Assembly: GCF_019740355.2 (NCBI RefSeq)
Contig: NZ_CP091819.1
Location: 3,038,001-3,102,000 of the forward strand
Source: Paracrocinitomix mangrovi
GTDB lineage: Bacteria > Bacteroidota > Bacteroidia > Flavobacteriales_D > Crocinitomicaceae
Length of the DNA stretch: 64,000 bases
Direction of reading: 5' to 3'
Below the pieces are notes generated by a model. The model was given only the letters and a program-made list of their open reading frames with translations. It ran no database searches and was not told the origin of the DNA. Positions within the stretch are counted from its first letter, which is position 1; each line of letters starts with the position of its first letter. Below, piece after piece: positions 18,937-29,136 of this stretch. Both the position numbers and the translations under genes were made by a program.

Positions 18937-18978
18937 TTATTGTCTCCTATTTGCTAACAATGGAGGTGGTTCACCGTT
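18937..18978 (-). repeat. 42-bp direct repeat, 3' end of dinB (copy 2)
   Basis: The end of the intact dinB reading frame, identical over 42 bases to 17925-17966. The identity starts exactly at the stop codon and breaks at the upstream base. See copy 1. Confidence 0.95.
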
Positions 18979-20142
18979 AAATGGATTCCATCTGCTAATG
19001 CTTTTTGCCCCCATTCCTGATGCACGCATAATAGCTCTGTCACCGTATCTTTCTCTGATGTGATCCATGGCTTGATAGAGATTAATGACTTCAGTATCAT
19101 CAAATAAATTGATTTGGTGCCCACCTTCAACCAGATGACTGAAACGAACACCTATCAATCGAACCAACATTCTTCGGTTATACAGTTGTTTAAATAAATC
19201 CAACACAATTGGAATAATGGTATGGTCAGATGCATTATAAGGAATGCGTTTTTGAAGGGTGTAAGTTTGAAAGTCTGAATACCTAATTTTTACCGTAATA
19301 CAAGCGGTTAATTTATTGCCTCTTCTCAATTGGTAAACCAAATTTTCTGCAATGGCGGTAATAATTCCCTTTAGTTTAATAACGTCAATGGTATCCTTGT
19401 CAAAGGTGCGTTCAGTTGAAATGGATTTGCGTTCCTGATATTGTACAACAGGTGAATTGTCAATTCCGTTTGCTTTTTTCCACATTACCACTCCATTTTT
19501 GCCAAAAACCCTTTCCATAACTTCCATTGGCATTTCTTGAAGTGTATAAATTTTTTTGACCCCCAGATTACAAAGTGTACGGTAAGTTTTATCCCCAATC
19601 ATGGGGATTTTTTTTACTGATAAAGGAGCTAAGAATGGTTTTTCGGTTCCAATAGCAACATTAATTTCATTGTTGGGTTTTGCTTCTCCGGTGGCAATTT
19701 TGGATACCGTTTTATTGGCGGATAAACCAAAGGATATGGGTAATCCGGTTTCTTTGATAATCTTTTGACGCAATTCAGAAGAGAACTTATAACATCCATA
19801 AAAACGATCCATACCTGTGAGGTCAGCATAGAATTCATCTACCGAAGTTTTTTCGTAAATCGGAACAGATTCTTTGATGATTTCAGTTACGGTATCCGAA
19901 AATTTGCTGTATACACCTGAATTTCCTCTTAAAATAATCGCTTCAGGACACAGTTGTTTGGCCATTCGCATAGGCATGGCAGAATGTATTCCAAATCTTC
20001 TTGCTTCATATGAACAGGAGGCAACTACTCCACGGTCTGATGTCCCTCCAATAATGACAGGTTTGCCAATAAGTTTGCTGTCAATCAGCCGCTCGCAAGA
20101 CACAAAAAAAGTGTCCAAATCCATATGAACTATTGTCTTCAT
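18937..20142 (-). CDS. dinB: DNA polymerase IV (Y family, DinB)
   Basis: A 401-residue Y-family translesion polymerase. The palm motif MDLDTFFVSCERL carries catalytic Asp8 and steric-gate Phe13; the second motif SVDEFYADLTG carries Asp102 and Glu103. SYEARRFGIHSAMPMRMA is the fingers motif, followed by a little-finger domain to about 380. It bypasses damaged bases and lacks proofreading. The start overlaps the dnaE stop by one base (TAATG), so both are translated as a unit. The last 13 codons and stop are duplicated at 17925-17966, outside the gene. The enzyme itself is complete. Confidence 0.96.
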   Translation of the reverse strand: MKTIVHMDLDTFFVSCERLIDSKLIGKPVIIGGTSDRGVVASCSYEARRFGIHSAMPMRMAKQLCPEAIILRGNSGVYSKFSDTVTEIIKESVPIYEKTSVDEFYADLTGMDRFYGCYKFSSELRQKIIKETGLPISFGLSANKTVSKIATGEAKPNNEINVAIGTEKPFLAPLSVKKIPMIGDKTYRTLCNLGVKKIYTLQEMPMEVMERVFGKNGVVMWKKANGIDNSPVVQYQERKSISTERTFDKDTIDVIKLKGIITAIAENLVYQLRRGNKLTACITVKIRYSDFQTYTLQKRIPYNASDHTIIPIVLDLFKQLYNRRMLVRLIGVRFSHLVEGGHQINLFDDTEVINLYQAMDHIRERYGDRAIMRASGMGAKSISRWNPFNGEPPPLLANRRQ

Positions 20143-23100
20143 TAGTGTTTACTTTTTTTGCTTAAAGCGGTAAAGCCCATTCTTTCGTCAGAGTATCTAG
20201 GATCTTCTATGATCTCCATTTTTTCCATATACTCAGCTTCAATGGAGATGCAATCATAATCTTCAATTACTTTGCCTTTTACTTTGTAAACTCCACTTCC
20301 TCTAAAGTGATATTTAGCGGCTATTTGTGGAAAATGAACTGAATCTAACCATTGCCCTTTTTCATCTAAAAAAGTTCCGAAATACATGGTGTCCCCATTT
20401 TTGGTTGAGGTGCGTTTACGGTGAATCAGGTATCCTTTTATCCAAACAGTTTCACCTACATGATTGGGCAACTCTTCGGCCAGATAGTAAACAGTATCAT
20501 CCTGACGTAGAATCTCAAAAACGTTGTGTAAAGGAAAACCCAGTAACTCAATTTGATCAAAAGTGTCTTCCTGCCATGAGTTTTCTAATTGGGGTATTTC
20601 ATACTCCGGTCGTTGAATTCTAAAAAGATCTTTGACCAAAAAGTTGGCCAAATCATCTGTTCTTTTTTTGCTGACATTGCCTAATTTAAAGTGAGCTTCC
20701 CAAAGCAATGATCGTTTATTTTTTTTGGTAAATCTAAAAGCATCAATGCGGATTAATATGCTGATTTGTTCCAGTGATATTGGCACCCTATCTATAAAAT
20801 CATTAAAGCTTTTGAAGTAGCCTTCCTTGTCTCTTGCTAATAAAATTAAAGCAGCTGTTTTTTGCTCAAATCCGTGTAAAAGGTGAAAGCCAACAAAGAT
20901 GTCTTTGCCATATAAAGTAGTTTTGTATTCGCTTCTGTTGACACAAGGAGGATGAATAACTCCGCCATGTAATCGCGCTTCATGAACGTAGAGTTCTGTG
21001 CTATAAAAACCACCATAATTATTGATGGTTGCTACCATATATTCCAAAGGATAATAGGCTTTTAAAAACAAACTTTGATAACTTTCTACTGCATAAGATG
21101 CGGAGTGTCCTTTGGCAAAAGCATAACCGGCAAAACTGGCTGTTTGTCTCCATACTTCGGCTGTCAATTCTTTTGAATGTCCTCTGACATTAATACAGTT
21201 GTTAAAAAACTTGTCTCGTACCTGATCAAATTCTTCTCTAGATCTGTATTTACCGGACATTCCTCTTCGCATTTTATCCGCTTCTCCTAAACTTAATCCG
21301 GCAAAAAAGTGAGCTACTTTAATTACATCTTCCTGGTATACCATTACACCATAAGTTTCAGGCATGAGTTGTAGCATTACAGGATGGGCATCTTTTCTTC
21401 TTTCAGGATTGCGGTAGCGCAAAATATACTCCTGCATCATTCCAGATTGAGCTACTCCAGGACGAATGACAGAGCTTGCTGCTACCAACCCCAAATAATT
21501 ATCTACCCTCAATTTTCGTAGCAACATCCGCATGGCAGGAGATTCAACATAAAAACATCCAATGGCCTGTGCATTTTTTAGCATTGTTTTAATGCGTTCA
21601 TCCGTTTTGAATCGCTTCATGTCATGGATGTCTATAAAAGGTTCTTTTGGTCTTTTTTCCTTAATGATTTCTATGGCATCTTTGATTTTTCCAAGTCCTC
21701 TTTGGCTGAGAATATCAAACTTGTAGAGTCCTATATCCTCTGCAATGTGCATGTCAAATTGTATGGTTGGATATCCTTTAGGAGGTAAAAAGGTTGGTGT
21801 AAACCATGAAATGGGCTTCTCTGAAATTACAATTCCACTTGCGTGAATGCTGAGGTGACTGGGAAAACCATGAATGTATTCACTGTATTTAACGACTAAA
21901 TGAGTGAGGTGATTCATCTCCCATTTTTGGATATAGTCTTTGCTTAGTTTGTCAATTTCCTCTTTGGGTAATCCAAAAACTTTACCTAATTCTCTCCTAA
22001 CTGCTCTGGCTTGGAAAGTATTGTAAGTGGCTACTAAGGCAACATGCTTAAAACGATCAAATATATATGCGGTAACGTCATCTCGGTCTGTCCATGAAAA
22101 GTCAATGTCAAAATCAGGAGGGTTAATGCGATAAAGATTAATGAAGCGCTCAAAGTACAAGTCCAACTCAATAGGATCTACATCTGTAATGCGCAAAATA
22201 TAAGCGACAACTGAGTTGGCACCACTTCCCCTACCGACATAAAAGTAGCCCTTTGATCTGGCGTATTTAACAATATCCCAATTGATGAGGAAATAAGAAA
22301 CAAAGCCCATTTTTTTTATCGTGTCCAATTCCTTTTTAACTCTGGCTTTTACTTCATCAGTTGCCTCCGGATATCGATATTGCATTCCCTCTTTGCATAG
22401 TTTCATCAATAAAGCTTCATCCGCTTCTTCGCTTTCAGTATAGTGTTTTTGATTTTGAGGTGGAGCGGTATCGCTTAAATCAAAATGAATGGATGATTGA
22501 TTGAGTATTTCATGGGTGTTAGTAATGATGTTGGGAAATGCTTCATAGAGATTTATCAACTCATCAATAGGAATCATTTGGTGAGATTCTAAGGCTTGCT
22601 CGTTTAAGGATAACTTACTTAATAAGGTGTTTTTATCAATGGCACGTAAGAGTCGGTGAGCATTAAAATCTCTTTTGTTGCGAAAAGTGACAGTTTGTAA
22701 AACCACCATTTTTGAAGTGTCTAGTTTTTTGATGCGGATATAATCCAAATCTTTAGGAGAAACACCTATGTATTCATGGGGTAGTAAATCTGCTAAACTG
22801 TTACCAGAGCTATCCCTTTTTAAGGGATAAACAACAAATACATTTTCAAAATCAGGAGCACGTTCAGGTATTTCTTTGATTCCATTTTCAACTATGGTTT
22901 TATTGAGTAGAAAAGGAGTGAGGTATTCATTAATTTCTTGAAAGCCTTTATTGTTTTTAGCTATGGCAATATATAGTTGTTCTACACCATTTCTAAAATC
23001 AATTCCAAAGATGGGCTTGATGTCATATTTTGGTGCCAAGCGAGCAAATTCAAGACAGGCAGAAGTATTGTTGATATCTGATATCACCATGGATTGGATA

Positions 23101-23186
23101 CCGTTTACTTTGCCCAATTCTAATAATTGTTTGGGGCTGATGGTTCCATAGCGCAAGCTGTAGTATGAATGCGTGTTTAAGTACAT
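20142..23186 (-). CDS. DNA polymerase III alpha-like, error-prone DnaE2-type
   Basis: A 1014-residue C-family polymerase, shorter than replicative DnaE (about 1,160). It has an N-terminal PHP domain (1-100), YVGRGSGANSVVAYIL (316-331), the palm motif PPDFDIDF with Asp358/Asp360/Asp362, a helix-hairpin-helix region and a C-terminal OB-fold (VGETVWIKGYLIHRK near 925). The PHP metal ligands look lost (NTHSYYSLRYG: His4 to Asn, Asp13 to Tyr; SDINN: His38 to Ile), so the domain is likely not nucleolytic. The one-base overlap with dinB marks a translesion-synthesis operon, comparable to the dnaE2-imuB module but with dinB. No imuA/lexA gene is adjacent. Confidence 0.9.
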   Translation of the reverse strand: MYLNTHSYYSLRYGTISPKQLLELGKVNGIQSMVISDINNTSACLEFARLAPKYDIKPIFGIDFRNGVEQLYIAIAKNNKGFQEINEYLTPFLLNKTIVENGIKEIPERAPDFENVFVVYPLKRDSSGNSLADLLPHEYIGVSPKDLDYIRIKKLDTSKMVVLQTVTFRNKRDFNAHRLLRAIDKNTLLSKLSLNEQALESHQMIPIDELINLYEAFPNIITNTHEILNQSSIHFDLSDTAPPQNQKHYTESEEADEALLMKLCKEGMQYRYPEATDEVKARVKKELDTIKKMGFVSYFLINWDIVKYARSKGYFYVGRGSGANSVVAYILRITDVDPIELDLYFERFINLYRINPPDFDIDFSWTDRDDVTAYIFDRFKHVALVATYNTFQARAVRRELGKVFGLPKEEIDKLSKDYIQKWEMNHLTHLVVKYSEYIHGFPSHLSIHASGIVISEKPISWFTPTFLPPKGYPTIQFDMHIAEDIGLYKFDILSQRGLGKIKDAIEIIKEKRPKEPFIDIHDMKRFKTDERIKTMLKNAQAIGCFYVESPAMRMLLRKLRVDNYLGLVAASSVIRPGVAQSGMMQEYILRYRNPERRKDAHPVMLQLMPETYGVMVYQEDVIKVAHFFAGLSLGEADKMRRGMSGKYRSREEFDQVRDKFFNNCINVRGHSKELTAEVWRQTASFAGYAFAKGHSASYAVESYQSLFLKAYYPLEYMVATINNYGGFYSTELYVHEARLHGGVIHPPCVNRSEYKTTLYGKDIFVGFHLLHGFEQKTAALILLARDKEGYFKSFNDFIDRVPISLEQISILIRIDAFRFTKKNKRSLLWEAHFKLGNVSKKRTDDLANFLVKDLFRIQRPEYEIPQLENSWQEDTFDQIELLGFPLHNVFEILRQDDTVYYLAEELPNHVGETVWIKGYLIHRKRTSTKNGDTMYFGTFLDEKGQWLDSVHFPQIAAKYHFRGSGVYKVKGKVIEDYDCISIEAEYMEKMEIIEDPRYSDERMGFTALSKKSKH

Positions 23187-23239
23187 TTGTCTCTCTTCTC
23201 TTCATACTTCTACCAAAAAGCTTGTTGTGAAAATTATTT

Positions 23240-23261
23240 ACCTCCCCCTTAATCCCCCTCC
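23240..23261 (+). repeat. 22-bp GC-rich repeat, arm A of an inverted pair
   Basis: A perfect reverse complement of 23369-23390, 107 nt away. It lies in the untranslated region about 54 bp upstream of the dnaE start and is strikingly C-rich (seven C-runs) in an AT-rich genome. A small hairpin ccctc/gaggg (23278-23293) follows it. Confidence 0.9.
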
Positions 23262-23355
23262 TTTCCATCTCACATATCCCTCGCACAAGAGGGAATAGTA
23301 TATTCCATTACTTGTGTATTTCCAAAATTTTCCAATAATCCAAAAGGATTATTAA

Positions 23356-23760
23356 TTATTCCCCCTTTGGAGGGGGATTAAGGGGGAGGTCTGTAGACCT
23401 TAAAACATGTATAGCATGTTCTATCTTAATACTTATATCATCTATGCAATTAAGAACCTCTCCTTCTGTAAATCTTAAAAAATGATAACCTAGGTTTTCT
23501 AACCTTTCTTGACGATACCTATCATATGATGGGTTTGAAAAATGCGAACTACCGTCTATCTCTACGATCAACTTAACCTCCTGACAAAAAAAGTCTACAA
23601 TAAACCTATCAATAGGTCTTTGTCTTTTAAATTGAGCGCCAATTCTACCTCTGCTAAGTAATGATTTCCAGATGTATTTTTCTGCCTTTGAAATTGACTC
23701 ATTTCTCAGCTCCCAAGCCCTATCTTTTAGTTTTATATTGTAGTGGTTATATTTTTTCAT
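23356..23760 (-). CDS. DUF559 endonuclease-domain protein (Vsr-like)
   Basis: A 134-residue protein of the DUF559 type, part of the PD-(D/E)XK/Vsr-like nuclease group. The core reads KAEKYIWKSL, FKRQRPIDRFIVDFFCQ and LIVEIDGSSHF, with Asp56, Glu67 and Asp69 as likely metal ligands. The C-terminal tail (DLPLNPPPKGE) is encoded by a palindromic GC-rich repeat (23361-23390), so the repeat has been absorbed into the reading frame. A second copy of that repeat lies inverted 107 nt downstream. Tails with this PLNPPPKG pattern are familiar to me from other DUF559 proteins, which suggests an evolutionary link between nuclease and repeat. Enzymatic activity is inferred. Confidence 0.85.
   Translation of the reverse strand: MKKYNHYNIKLKDRAWELRNESISKAEKYIWKSLLSRGRIGAQFKRQRPIDRFIVDFFCQEVKLIVEIDGSSHFSNPSYDRYRQERLENLGYHFLRFTEGEVLNCIDDISIKIEHAIHVLRSTDLPLNPPPKGE
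23361..23400 (-). repeat. GC-rich palindromic repeat (arm B) with two hairpins
   Basis: Contains 23369-23390, the perfect 22-bp complement of arm A. Next to it are a hairpin with stem ccccct/aggggg and loop ttgg (23361-23376) and a second one with stem aggtct/agacct and loop gt (23387-23400). It codes for the tail of the DUF559 protein. The paired hairpin structure recalls repetitive extragenic palindromes. Confidence 0.8.
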
Positions 23761-23825
23761 TTGATTATCTCAATACAAAAATATTAAAAAACCGTCAATA
23801 ATATGATTAAAAAATAATCAAAAAA

Positions 23826-23872: not shown

Positions 23873-24475
23873 ATGAAAAAGTTGATAATCATTGCAGTAT
23901 CCCTTTTTACAATTAATGTATTTGCACAAACAGATGCAATAGACGAACAGTGCACATCATATGATAAGATGCTAATACAAGCCGAAGAGGAAGCAGTTCC
24001 CATAGGAAAAATGAAAGTCAGTTGCCAATTGGTTAAAAGGGCAATAGGCCCTGTAGATCATGAGATTACCATTTATTTTGATGAGCATGAAACAATAATC
24101 ACGCAGGATGATTCGGAACAAGAAGAGTTTTTGAAAGAGGCAGTGATAAGAAAAGTTGAATTTGAAATCAGTTCGGTATCCTACAAAATGAAATACGCAT
24201 ACTATTTTGATGAAGGAGGATTACTCGTAAAAGTAGATTATGTTGAAACAGGGTATGAGTGCTACCACAAAGAATCATATTTTAAGAGCAAAACTCTTAT
24301 TAGAGTAAAACAAACTGCAACAGAAGGAGAAGATTGCCAAACTGAAGAAAAAGCAGAAACATATGATCACACTTCTCCAACAAAAGAGGAAAAAGCAGCT
24401 GCATCATGGCATTTAGCAGATGCAGATAAATTCAGACTAATTCTGTTCAACAACTACGAGTTGATGAAGAATTAA
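23873..24475 (+). CDS. Exported protein of unknown function
   Basis: A 200-residue protein with signal peptide (MKKLIIIAVSLFTINVFAQ). The mature part is acidic with conserved-looking strands such as HEITIYFDEHETIITQDDSEQ and YAYYFDEGGLLVKVDYVETG, and a few Cys. No catalytic motif or named family was recognised. It is preceded by a plausible TTG-18-TACATTTA promoter and its stop overlaps the convergent PorP/SprF gene by four bases. Confidence 0.65.
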   Translation: MKKLIIIAVSLFTINVFAQTDAIDEQCTSYDKMLIQAEEEAVPIGKMKVSCQLVKRAIGPVDHEITIYFDEHETIITQDDSEQEEFLKEAVIRKVEFEISSVSYKMKYAYYFDEGGLLVKVDYVETGYECYHKESYFKSKTLIRVKQTATEGEDCQTEEKAETYDHTSPTKEEKAAASWHLADADKFRLILFNNYELMKN

Positions 24476-25401
24476 TAAATTCTTGGGAAAGCAATAGCTC
24501 CAGAAGTAGCTCCTAAACGGTAAACCATCATCACTTCATGAGTTCCGCTATAGAAATCATTAAGTGCAGAAAAACCATATTCATATCCATAAGAAAGCAT
24601 CAGCTGAGGAACAATATAAATCTGCATGTTCGCCATTACTTCATTACTAGAACGATAAGATACTCCAATTCCAAATCTGTCTTTGAACATGGTGTTGATG
24701 TTAAAGTCAATTTGAAGTGGAGAACCGGATACTTCTTTTACCAAAGTAGAAAATACCAAATCATGCTTGTCTTTGATTCTCCATTTGTAACCGGCATGTA
24801 AATAGTAATGCATATTTGCCGCATTGAATTTCACTTCTCCTTTCGGTCCGCCATTGTATTCAACAACTCTATTTTGAAGGATGTTAGGAATTACAAATCC
24901 AACATAAAAATTGTTGCGGTAAAAATAGGAACCAAACTTAAAGTTGGGTAAGGCAAAAGTTGGAGTATTATTCGTGTATAAAGGATCGTTTGGATCAATT
25001 GTATTGATGTCTTCCAAATCTGCTTTTACCAGGTTTAAAGAACTTGAAACACCAAAAATTAAACGACTGTTTTGTCCGGTTTTAATTTTATAGGCATATG
25101 AAGCAGAAATATCAGTTGAAGTATTAATTCCAACTCTATCCATGATGGCATTTACACCAATAAAGTGTTTTTGCTTTTTACCTAATGGCATGTTGTAGTT
25201 AACTCCTCCTAAGTGAGGTGCACCATCAAATCCTACCCACTGATTCTTATAGATAAGTGCCATATTGATGTTCTCAAATGTCCCAATTGAAGCTGGGTTA
25301 ATGAACGGTTGATGGATGGCATACTGCCCAATGTGAAATTGATTTTGCCCTTGAACTCCAACGGCTATCAATACTGTTAAAAGTGCTAAAATTCTTTTCA
25401 T
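24472..25401 (-). CDS. PorP/SprF family type IX secretion membrane protein
   Basis: A 309-residue outer-membrane beta-barrel protein. It has a signal peptide (GVQGQ) and the family opening FHIGQYAIHQPFINPASIGT, with alternating beta-strands and GVSYRSSNEVMANMQIYIVP near the end. PorP/SprF proteins help attach or secrete partner T9SS type B adhesins. It is the last gene of a minus-strand operon, 21 bp after the 1237-residue adhesin, which is its likely partner, like SprF with SprB. A second, similar protein lies at 60435-61493. Confidence 0.92.
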   Translation of the reverse strand: MKRILALLTVLIAVGVQGQNQFHIGQYAIHQPFINPASIGTFENINMALIYKNQWVGFDGAPHLGGVNYNMPLGKKQKHFIGVNAIMDRVGINTSTDISASYAYKIKTGQNSRLIFGVSSSLNLVKADLEDINTIDPNDPLYTNNTPTFALPNFKFGSYFYRNNFYVGFVIPNILQNRVVEYNGGPKGEVKFNAANMHYYLHAGYKWRIKDKHDLVFSTLVKEVSGSPLQIDFNINTMFKDRFGIGVSYRSSNEVMANMQIYIVPQLMLSYGYEYGFSALNDFYSGTHEVMMVYRLGATSGAIAFPRIY

Positions 25402-25422
25402 CTCAATGCAATTTTTTGCTTC

Positions 25423-28400
25423 CTACTTTCTTCTTAAATCAATATATCCGTTGATAGGTTCTTCACCATTTCCAAGGTCCAAAACAAAAAAGTAAGTTCC
25501 GTCTACCACACTATCTCCCATTACTTTCATTTTTGCTCCATCTGAACTTCCATCCCAATCATTTAAATAAGGAGCAGCCTCAAATACTTTATCTCCCCAT
25601 CTATTAAAAATCACAATGTTATTGTCTGGATATTGTTCCAAATGTAAAATCACAAAAGTGTCATTGAATCCATCATTATTTGGCGTAAAACCATTTGGAA
25701 TCACAACATCTTGTTCTCCATTTACTTCAATGTAAATAGTAGCTCTTTCACATTCACTTACACAAACCGGGTCACAGATTTCGTAAACAATACTATCCAA
25801 TCCTATAAATCCAGCATTTGGCGTGTATTCAAACTCTCCGTTTCCTAAATAACTTGCAGATCCTCCAATTGGTTGATCAATAATTGTAATAGTATTTACA
25901 TCACCAGTATCATTGGTGTAAGCATTCACTGTTACTATTGTATTCGGGAATGTACTTGCATAATCATCATTAGCTGCAACCAAAGAAAGATCAGAGAAAT
26001 TAACTGTAACTAGGATGGTGTTTTCACATCCGTTACCATCTGTAACAAGTAAACTATAAGTACCAGGAAGCAAGTTTCCTACAGATAAAGTATTCCCAAC
26101 ATTGTTTAATCCATCATTCCATAAATAAGTGTAATCAGGTGTACCGATTATTGTGATTCCTGATATTGTTCCTCCACCATTTACGCAGTTTCCATTATTT
26201 ACCTGAATACTTGATGTGTCTATTTGAGGTAGATCATTAACTGTAATTACCAATGAATCTGCTGCCGTACATCCGTTAGCATCAGTACCTGTTACAGTAA
26301 AAGTTGAAGTCATAGCAGGAGTCACGGTTACATTTTGTCCTGGGAAGTTACTTCCACTTGAATTGGCCCAGTTATAGGTACTTATTCCGGTTCCATTAGC
26401 TGTAATATCTGCAGATTCACCTAAACAAATTGTTTGATCTGCACTTGCCAGGATGCTAGGTAGAGCATTTACAATTACAACAATATCATCTGTATCTGTA
26501 CATCCGTCTGCATTAGAAACAGTTACTATATAAGTAGTTGTGGTAGAAGGTGAAACTGATTGGTTTTGTCCACTACCTAATCCATTGTCCCAGGTATAAG
26601 ATGTTCCGCCATTGGCACTTAAATTAGCAACATCTCCTGCACAAATTGTTTGATCAACTCCTGCATCTGCAGTAGGATTTGCATTTACTGTGATTGTAAC
26701 TGTTGCAGATCCTGAACAACCTCCTCCATCATCTACGTTTACAGTATAAGTAGTAGTTGAAGTTGGTGTAACAACATGAGTAGATCCTGTTCCTAAACCA
26801 TTATCCCAAGAATAATTAATACCTCCAGATGCGCTCAAAGTATGAGATTCACCTTCACAGATATCAGTATCTGCACCGGCATCCGGTGTCAAGGCGGCTC
26901 CTACATCAATAAAAATATCATCAGTGTCAACGCATCCATTAGCATCAGTTACGGTTACTGTATAAGTAACAGGGCTGGTAATGTTGGTAAGATTTTGAGT
27001 AGCTCCTGCTCCTAAGCCTCCATCCCACATGTATGAAACACCTCCTGTTGCAGTAATTGAAGCACTACCTCCATTACAAACAGTAATATCGTTTCCAGCA
27101 AATGCATTTGGCAAAGGATTTACAGTAACCAACACATCATCAGTATCCTGACATCCTGCAGCATTTCCGACTGTAACAGTGTAAATAGTGTTAGAAGTAG
27201 GAGAAACCATTTCAGTTGCTGAACCGCCGCCAGAACTCCATGAATAAGTTGTCCCTCCAGAAGCTGTTAATGTAGCTGTTTGCCCATTACATATTGCCTG
27301 ATCAGTTCCGGCATTTGCAGTTGGTGCAGCATTTACATTGACAGTAATTGCATCTGTATCTGTACAACCATTGCCGTCTGTTACAGTGACATTATATGTA
27401 GTTGTGGAATTAGGTGATACAGTTTGAGAAGCTCCGGTTGCAGGGATATCCCAGTTGTAGGTATAAGTTCCGTTTCCACCATTGGCAGTAGCAGTAATGT
27501 TGGCAGATTCATTATCACAAATTGTTTGATTTGAACCAGCATTTGCTACCGGGTTATCATTTACAGTTACGTATACAGATGCTGTAGTTGTGGTTCCGCA
27601 AAACCCTTGTACTTCAACTATATATTCAGTATTTTGAGCTGGAGTTACAGTTTCCGTTGCGTTTGCAGATGAAAATCCAACTGGTACAGATGACCAACTA
27701 TAAGTGTATGGTCCTGTTCCTGTAATAATTGCAGAAATGTCTGTTGATTGTCCGTCACAAATGAATTCATCTATAGCTACGGCTTCAACTACTTGAACTC
27801 CAGATGTTGCAGAAATAGTATAAGAACAAATGTCTCCGGCAAACCCATCAACAACAATGTAATAAGTATTACCAATGGTTAATCCTGTTGCTAAAACAGT
27901 TTGTGAAGTTGTAGTTTCAAGGAAATTGGAAACCGGAACAAAGTTGGTACAGTTTGTACCTTCAAATATCTGCATTTGCATTCCATTACCATTTTGGCAA
28001 GATGAAATCTCAACGAAAAGTTCAGCAGTTGTTGCACTTGCTGTAAACTGTAGCCAGCTATTGTTGTCAATTTGTACCGGTGAAACTCCTGTGTAACCTG
28101 TACCAAAAACACAACCCGGAATTGGACTTCCAGGGTCACCAATTCCGCACATATTATCAGGTGTATCAATTGTATAAGCTGAAGAGGTAACACCACCATA
28201 TCCATTTAAATCACAGATTTGTTGCGCATTAACACAGTCATCATTATCTGGAGATGTTACACAAATTTCAAATTCACCATTGTTGTTATTACCATATTCC
28301 CATACTCTAATAAACATTGTTGCACCTGGAGTCAAACCTGTTTGATAGATATGAGGCATTAATATTCCATCACCTGGCTCGCCATCATCATCACAAGCAA

Positions 28401-29136
28401 CTAAAGAAGGTGATCCGCAAGGACCTGAATAAAGCGCCATTGCACCATCAGAAAAATCAACTCCGGCTGTATGAATATCTAATTGACCACTTGCCGGTAC
28501 AACTACTGAGAACCACACATCTCCACCTGCATAACCTCCCTGGTAAGGAGAAGATCCTCCACAGCCAGAAGGTGTAGCAACAGCTGATCCTAGTGAACCT
28601 GCATTTGTAAATGTCAAATAATTACATGAAGGAGTAACTTCCGGCAAAGCATAAGCAGAGCACGGTTCGTTATTGTCAGGTGGTGCCAATCCAGTTACAC
28701 AAACTTGAAAAGTAGATGTACCTGAACCTACTCCGTAATGATAAACTCTAAAGTAATATGTGTTTCCCGGGGTTAAACCAGAAGCTTGTAAAACCTCTAA
28801 ACCATTTAAACCATTTACATCTTGACAATGAATTGAAGTCAATGATCCACATGTGCCACTGAATAATTGAATTACTGCGTCATATCCAACAGTAGGACTA
28901 ACAGTGATATCCATTTCAGAACTGTTGGCAACAAATGAATACCAAACGTCATCATCTGCATTACCACCACCAGAACAAGTAGGCATTGATTGTGTTCCGT
29001 TACCAGAAGAACCGGCCTGGAATGTACATTGAGTAAAAGTTGGGGTGATCGTTTCAGCATTTGCACATTCATCACCTTGAGAAAATCCTAATCCTGCAAA
29101 AAGAGAAAAGGATACTAATGTCAATATCTTTTTCAT
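25423..29136 (-). CDS. Large surface adhesin with Ig-like repeats and T9SS type B C-terminal domain
   Basis: A 1237-residue exported protein. After the signal peptide (to about 19) come three pre-peptidase/PPC-like domains (e.g. [20 protein letters not shown]), then seven or so similar Ig/PKD-like units of about 75 residues (pattern A.AG.D..IC.G....A.GG..Y.W and ...V.V.DANGCTDTD). A region with VAANDDYAS and [20 protein letters not shown] resembles a cadherin-like/Ig domain. The last 90 residues are a T9SS type B (CHU_C) signal: [18 protein letters not shown], then [10 protein letters not shown] and DWDG. It starts at 29136, overlapping the preceding small gene by ATGA. Role: cell-surface adhesion or gliding-related matrix. 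Confidence 0.93.

Follow-up and report, generated by a model that had tools for sequence, protein, structure and literature searches.

A DUF559 nuclease linked to BoxC/triplex-type repeats: a candidate REPIN-like element family with in-frame insertions in bacterial proteins

The DUF559 gene and the repeat pair of the window

The window, a 64-kb stretch of the single-contig, 4.37 Mb genome of Paracrocinitomix mangrovi, carries a DUF559 gene whose 3′ end is fused to a pair of inverted repeats (Table 1). The open reading frame matched PF04480 with 95 bits (E 3e-27; Pfam cut-off 20.6), and all eight predicted active-site residues are kept (E27, Q47, D56, E67, D69, H73, D80 and R96). It is the only DUF559 gene of the genome. 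In the PDB, the family profile matches 3hrl, which is a DUF559-like N. gonorrhoeae protein, as well as 3r3p (E 2e-6), the structure of the homing endonuclease I-Bth0305I. When the window protein was modelled with AlphaFold (AF2; pLDDT 86), the same two structures were the closest folds, with Vsr further off. PADLOC gave only weak matches, to restriction enzymes; an addiction role, which the initial annotation had offered next to a mobile system, finds no support. An Rfam search of the window gave no match. The insertion occupies the 5′ leader of a DnaE-type gene, which together with the Y-family polymerase gene directly next to it makes up a mutasome-like pair (18937-23186). Elsewhere in the window, positions 24472-29136 encode a PorP/SprF protein as well as one of 1237 aa, in which Ig/PKD repeats accompany a CHU_C type IX secretion signal.

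Table 1. Features at the window locus (positions in the window)
Feature	Position	Strand	Basis
REPIN-like pair, 151 bp, start-to-start spacing 129	23240..23390	.	arm match and folding
Repeat unit, short form: TTCCCCCTTT-GGAGGGGGA-TTA-AGGGGGAGGT, predicted hairpin and mirror third strand	23359..23390	+	
Inverted repeat unit, long form: core 23240-23261 and predicted hairpin TCCCTCTTGTGCGAGGGA	23240..23295	-	
DUF559 (PF04480) nuclease ORF, 134 aa	23356..23760	-	Pfam and residue check
Repeat-coded C-terminal tail DLPLNPPPKGE, residues 124-134	23359..23391	-	
DnaE-type polymerase gene, downstream of DUF559	20142..23186	-	
Insertion (DUF559 and repeat pair), approximate extent, absent from G296 (L135)	23221..23767	.	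congener comparison

The initial annotation had described a Pro-rich protein tail encoded by a repeat, with a perfect inverted copy nearby, and both points were borne out. The two arms, each of 22 nt (23240-23261 and 23369-23390), show 100% complementarity across a distance of 107 nt. The repeat encodes the last 11 residues of the protein, past the domain end, and the stop codon (23356-23358) also lies inside the repeat pair; apart from this tail, the window copy is intergenic. The description of the tail-coding sequence as a GC-rich palindrome needs correction. Together with the C-rich partner arm TTCCCCCTTT (23359-23368), the 22-mer GGAGGGGGATTAAGGGGGAGGT gives a hairpin and a third, mirror-image G-rich strand, whereas the 22-mer itself is a mirror repeat and no palindrome. 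Judged by its sequence, the window repeat is a motif of the intrastrand-triplex type. Allowing up to three mismatches, the core has two matches in the window compared to 0.02 expected, and none of 100 shuffles reached two. The 155-nt stretch with the repeat pair folds as DNA with -35.1 kcal/mol (z = -7.2; none of 200 shuffles folded as well). A control in which the pattern was read in reverse is uninformative for a mirror repeat such as this.

The repeat is not unique to the window, as it also occurs in relatives and the genome holds nine core copies at up to three mismatches, several of them as inverted pairs. Copies beyond the window pair are located at 3.52-3.61 Mb, away from DUF559. Window-type repeats thus occur as inverted REPs with fixed spacing and in dispersed copies, as is characteristic of REPINs, and pairs with a spacing of 126-132 recur among other family members. 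With a general repeat model built without the window sequences, the short-form unit scored 16.9 bits (E 0.016) and the long-form unit 12.4 bits (E 0.22). These weak scores count against the interpretation that we propose below.

A further check put forward there was whether repeat positions differ between strains. In a congener (G296), the same neighbours flank the site and both the DUF559 gene and the repeat pair are absent. About 545 bp of the window are without counterpart in G296; this stretch is bordered by an AT-rich leader block, which is conserved, and by the beginning of the dnaE-type gene. This AT-rich block is palindromic (TGATTATTTTTTAATCATATTATTGACGGTTTTTTAATATTTTTGT, window 23777-23825), lies upstream of the dnaE-type gene and is conserved in the congener; similar blocks were seen at L139 and L140. 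It is likely a promoter or operator that is now split from dnaE by DUF559.

Linkage of BoxC/triplex-type repeats to DUF559 genes

Knowledge of BoxC/triplex repeats dates back to the 1990s. In the units found beside DUF559 genes, a short loop separates a C/T-rich arm from its G/A-rich complement, and a linker leads on to a third block, which is G-rich and mirrors the G/A-rich arm. Mirror identity was 0.85 for 127 DUF559-adjacent units compared to 0.61 for shuffled sequences, and 1.0 for the window unit. In this predicted layout the DUF559-linked repeats correspond to the BoxC/PIT/intrastrand-triplex motif. When up to four substitutions are allowed, the triplex consensus published for E. coli, CCCTCNCCC-N3-6-GGGNGAGGG-N3-GGGNGAGGG (Holder et al. 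2015, PMC4666352), finds units beside DUF559 genes of many other species. The window copies are unmatched by it even at six substitutions and appear to be a divergent C5/G5 lineage variant that the E. coli consensus misses. A selective design of the repeats to be free of stop codons was considered and rejected, since their openness is a composition effect only (4.65 of 6 frames open, compared to 4.55 in shuffled and 3.9 in genomic sequence).

DUF559 genes and these repeats are linked. At 93 DUF559 loci of the class, repeat density was 3.21/kb within 200 bp compared to 0.02/kb at 1.5-2.6 kb, a local enrichment of about 160-fold. A repeat lies within 350 bp of 66 of these 93 genes; the 27 genes that lack a detectable repeat count against our interpretation. 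The published consensus with four substitutions allowed gave 1.56 near and 0.008/kb far at the class loci, and 2.64 near and 0.022/kb far in an independent named set. In the family of the window, window-type repeats lie within 350 bp of 19 of 30 DUF559 loci, at a density of 2.45/kb within 250 bp compared to 0-0.04/kb beyond 500 bp. Among 150 genomes of this family, 75 carry the window-type repeat and 66 carry DUF559 (OR 9.9, p 5e-10). Among 247 class genomes, the presence of at least five repeat copies was likewise associated with DUF559 (OR 13.5, p 3e-14), where per-genome counts near 28 are to be read as at least that many. Repeat-rich genomes that lack DUF559 (G396, G355 and G317 with 22, 13 and 11 copies) count against our interpretation; in the family, 12 of the 46 genomes with three or more copies have no DUF559. 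The named set, which spans phyla and was collected with a single consensus protein, comprised 80 loci, and 24 of its 41 loci outside Bacteroidota carry the repeat. These carriers belong to Chloroflexi, Cyanobacteria, Gallionella relatives, Verrucomicrobia, Spirochaetes, WOR-3, Armatimonadota and Peribacteria, and DUF559 and repeats are found together in at least eight phyla. Clustering of copies near DUF559 genes, which the initial annotation had put forward as a check, is thus far above background in the family, in the class and in other phyla. Similar Pro-rich tails, mentioned there for other DUF559 proteins, do recur and are repeat-coded, with SNPPPSPLQRGKK, KSPPKEGD and RRSPSP of E. coli YcjD as examples. 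In the open-access literature on DUF559, no title or abstract concerns a linkage to repeats.

REP elements are moved by RAYT (Y1) transposases, and the repeats might be ordinary REPs of this kind with DUF559 as a passenger. This is very improbable. The REPIN-like architecture is in line with it, and Y1_Tnp occurs in most repeat-rich genomes; the genome of the window has three Y1_Tnp genes. An independent, smaller genome-level association of repeats with Y1_Tnp among the 247 class genomes likewise counts against our interpretation. However, in the repeat-bearing genomes of the same survey in which most DUF559 genes had a repeat within 350 bp, this was the case for 0 of 39 Y1_Tnp genes. Among the matches listed, Y1_Tnp was moreover located in short open frames of 132-255 aa and never in long host frames. 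Mobilisation by RAYT is therefore rejected locally, although the co-occurrence at genome level persists. A stretch considered as a RAYT remnant (L011 485-763) had no Pfam match.

The E. coli member of the family is ycjD, located between sapF and fabI. YcjD is a predicted PD-(D/E)XK nuclease (PMC1189080). Like the window protein, it belongs to the DUF559 family and has a repeat-coded tail (RRSPSP or NRLSPSPQPSP) with repeats 3′ of the gene. The chromosome of strain KE47 has 16 dispersed repeat copies (reverse control 0), two of them within ~250 bp downstream of ycjD. In E. coli, ycjD is fixed: it is present in 3366 of 5426 genomes at essentially one site, and this stability counts against our interpretation. 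No clean empty junction was found in E. coli because strains without ycjD carry the eef operon there. A perfect 16-bp inverted repeat, CACCTCATTCTGACAA...TTGTCAGAATGAGGTG, is located at the start of ycjD (L337 637-680), and in one E. coli strain IS1 interrupts the gene (L341 1594-2724). The stable site would suit a structure-specific repair or processing nuclease that stands beside hairpin or triplex repeats and resolves or restrains them, with neither now moving the other. The Caulobacter DUF559 protein VsrA behaves like a repair nuclease (PMC12907096), and triplex motifs mark unstable loci (PMC4666352). We nevertheless regard this explanation as improbable, since it leaves unexplained the in-frame inserts of nuclease plus repeat in many unrelated enzymes and the switching between hosts described in the following section.

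In-frame insertions in host proteins

Unexpectedly, 45 of 94 DUF559 domains were located in frame inside host proteins, in one open frame with at least 100 aa of host sequence on both sides; the DUF559 sets represent the top of a score list, which favours intact copies. Hosts are LeuS, MetH and RecG, each at two sites, as well as RecJ, Acs and IleS. Pfam matches add methylmalonyl-CoA mutase, a UvrD-type helicase, a SpoIIE-type phosphatase and HsdR, and hosts in other phyla are MetH, MetG, ValS and Eco57I-type enzymes. The survey included MAG assemblies, and the embedded pattern was also seen in genomes of one to few contigs (G134, G231, G188 and G110). In all of the 20 genomes concerned, the interrupted LeuS is the sole LeuS. 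Repeats at embedded inserts point outward in 58 of 63 cases, with 23 L and 4 R upstream and 35 R and 1 L downstream. All eight predicted active-site residues are kept in 48 of 48 embedded sequences of the alignment. In a tree, the embedded copies fall within one supported clade, inside which host gene and site switched repeatedly; the window protein is placed outside this clade, among divergent standalone genes.

MetH of one genus provides an allelic series of empty sites, full inserts, an insert with an in-frame internal deletion (L132) and repeat-only remnants. In-frame repeat inserts that lack the nuclease were also found elsewhere (LeuS of L014). No target-site duplication was detected in the flanks of G126 or of the MetH genus; presence and absence alleles were seen in the MetH genus and at the window site, but no junction was close enough to define such a duplication. 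A scan of ten host proteins revealed no intein splicing domain, and nine loci contained no Rfam group I or II intron. The host protein seems to retain the DUF559 insert.

Several further arrangements were noted. LeuS of L030 contains tandem in-frame repeat-coded peptides (SPQERGEG...) ahead of the DUF559 insert, which suggests local amplification of the repeat within the coding sequence. Seven Pedobacter loci (L245, L246, L248, L251, L253, L258 and L276) carry an open frame of 400-430 aa in which DUF559 is fused to HisF. In a Chloroflexi MAG, a SAM riboswitch (L242 87-203) is located upstream of a DUF559-bearing metH.

As the main alternative, the repeats might be a homing target instead of cargo, so that a homing-type DUF559 gene enters pre-existing pairs that spread by other means. 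The relation of DUF559 to I-Bth0305I, the repeat-only remnants at the MetH site and the frequent location of standalone genes between complete pairs of repeats (L021, L042) fit this explanation. However, congeneric empty MetH sites are mostly devoid of any repeat, as is the empty site in the window's congener, and embedded copies have one outward-facing repeat on each side. We consider a homing target unlikely, if still a serious contender. That nuclease and repeats merely accumulate in variable regions deserves hardly any credence: both do occur in variable loci, but the sharp decay with distance, the fixed orientation, the bounded inserts within genes and the negative control with Y1_Tnp all oppose such hitchhiking.

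A candidate element family and its relation to known systems

We favour, with modest confidence, the reading that DUF559 and BoxC/intrastrand-triplex repeats belong to one widespread REPIN-like element family with DUF559 as its enzyme. Several lines of evidence argue for it: the local enrichment, which is absent at Y1_Tnp genes and was reproduced with the published consensus and with named loci; the co-occurrence at genome level in class and family; the embedded in-frame copies with outward-facing repeats and the MetH allelic series; and the sole LeuS genes and repeated host switching within one clade. One genome contains dispersed, nearly identical repeat pairs whose ends covary; these pairs and the conserved active site point in the same direction, as do the homology to a homing endonuclease, the ycjD-adjacent copies and the empty site in the congener. 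On the other hand, neither excision nor an intermediate of transposition nor a target-site duplication was seen, which counts against this reading.

The data show the linkage and its geometry, the entry into genes in frame, empty and partial alleles and the conserved active site; we infer that recognition, nicking and movement are driven by DUF559. Inverted repeat pairs would be the non-autonomous units, and a DUF559 gene that has these repeats at its borders the enzyme-bearing unit. The nuclease, which has a Vsr/I-Bth0305I fold, may recognise repeats that are extruded as hairpin or triplex structures where replication or transcription exposes single-stranded DNA, and might nick at the outer repeat borders. 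Host repair would then install the freed or copied unit at a new place. Insertions into genes would persist only if they are in frame; their repeats would become Pro/Gly/Ser-rich linkers, and the nuclease would ride along in an essential enzyme as an additional domain. The DUF559 gene of the window is a standalone one, carries a repeat pair at its 3′ end and has inserted into a dnaE-type leader.

More tentatively, and with a likelihood that we place somewhat short of even, these elements could form a mobile class that spans phyla. In it, a Vsr-fold nuclease would mobilise triplex repeats, supply the missing mobiliser of BoxC/triplex elements and lodge in essential enzymes in frame without splicing, so that the host protein tolerates and expresses the parasite. 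DUF559, a domain of unknown function in many bacteria, is the first candidate mobility enzyme for these orphan repeats, which were previously without a known enzyme, and the link makes both testable in E. coli K-12 via ycjD. If true, inserts in the sole LeuS and in MetH, RecJ, RecG and other enzymes would show how selfish DNA can hide in coding sequence with neither introns nor inteins, and many odd Pro-rich inserts of bacterial enzymes would be explained.

In common with BoxC/PIT/TM, the repeats have a C-rich arm, a loop, a G-rich arm, a 3-nt linker and a mirror G-rich block, and the pairs of type A and type B of BoxC/TM resemble the inverted pairs at DUF559 loci. BoxC/TM is described as always intergenic in K-12, and no mobility genes were reported near the triplex motif in E. 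coli (PMC4666352), whereas the repeats described here are tied to DUF559 and also occur inside coding sequences. Inteins and the EDxHD homing endonuclease I-Bth0305I (PDB 3r3p; PMC3943268) offer a related fold and a nuclease embedded in host genes; in contrast to these, the scanned DUF559 loci have neither intein domain nor intron. Rickettsia palindromic elements (PMC10969869) are also short palindromic elements in frame within protein-coding genes. They carry a short conserved peptide frame, and a nuclease-bearing version is unmentioned in PMC10969869; DUF559 repeats differ from them in sequence and have a far wider host range. With the REPIN/RAYT system (Bertels and Rainey 2011, PMC3116915), the elements share dispersed inverted REP pairs and usually few enzyme genes with flanking repeats. 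Their repeats are found beside DUF559 instead of Y1_Tnp genes, the candidate enzyme is a Vsr-fold nuclease instead of a Y1 transposase, and enzyme-bearing copies enter genes in frame.
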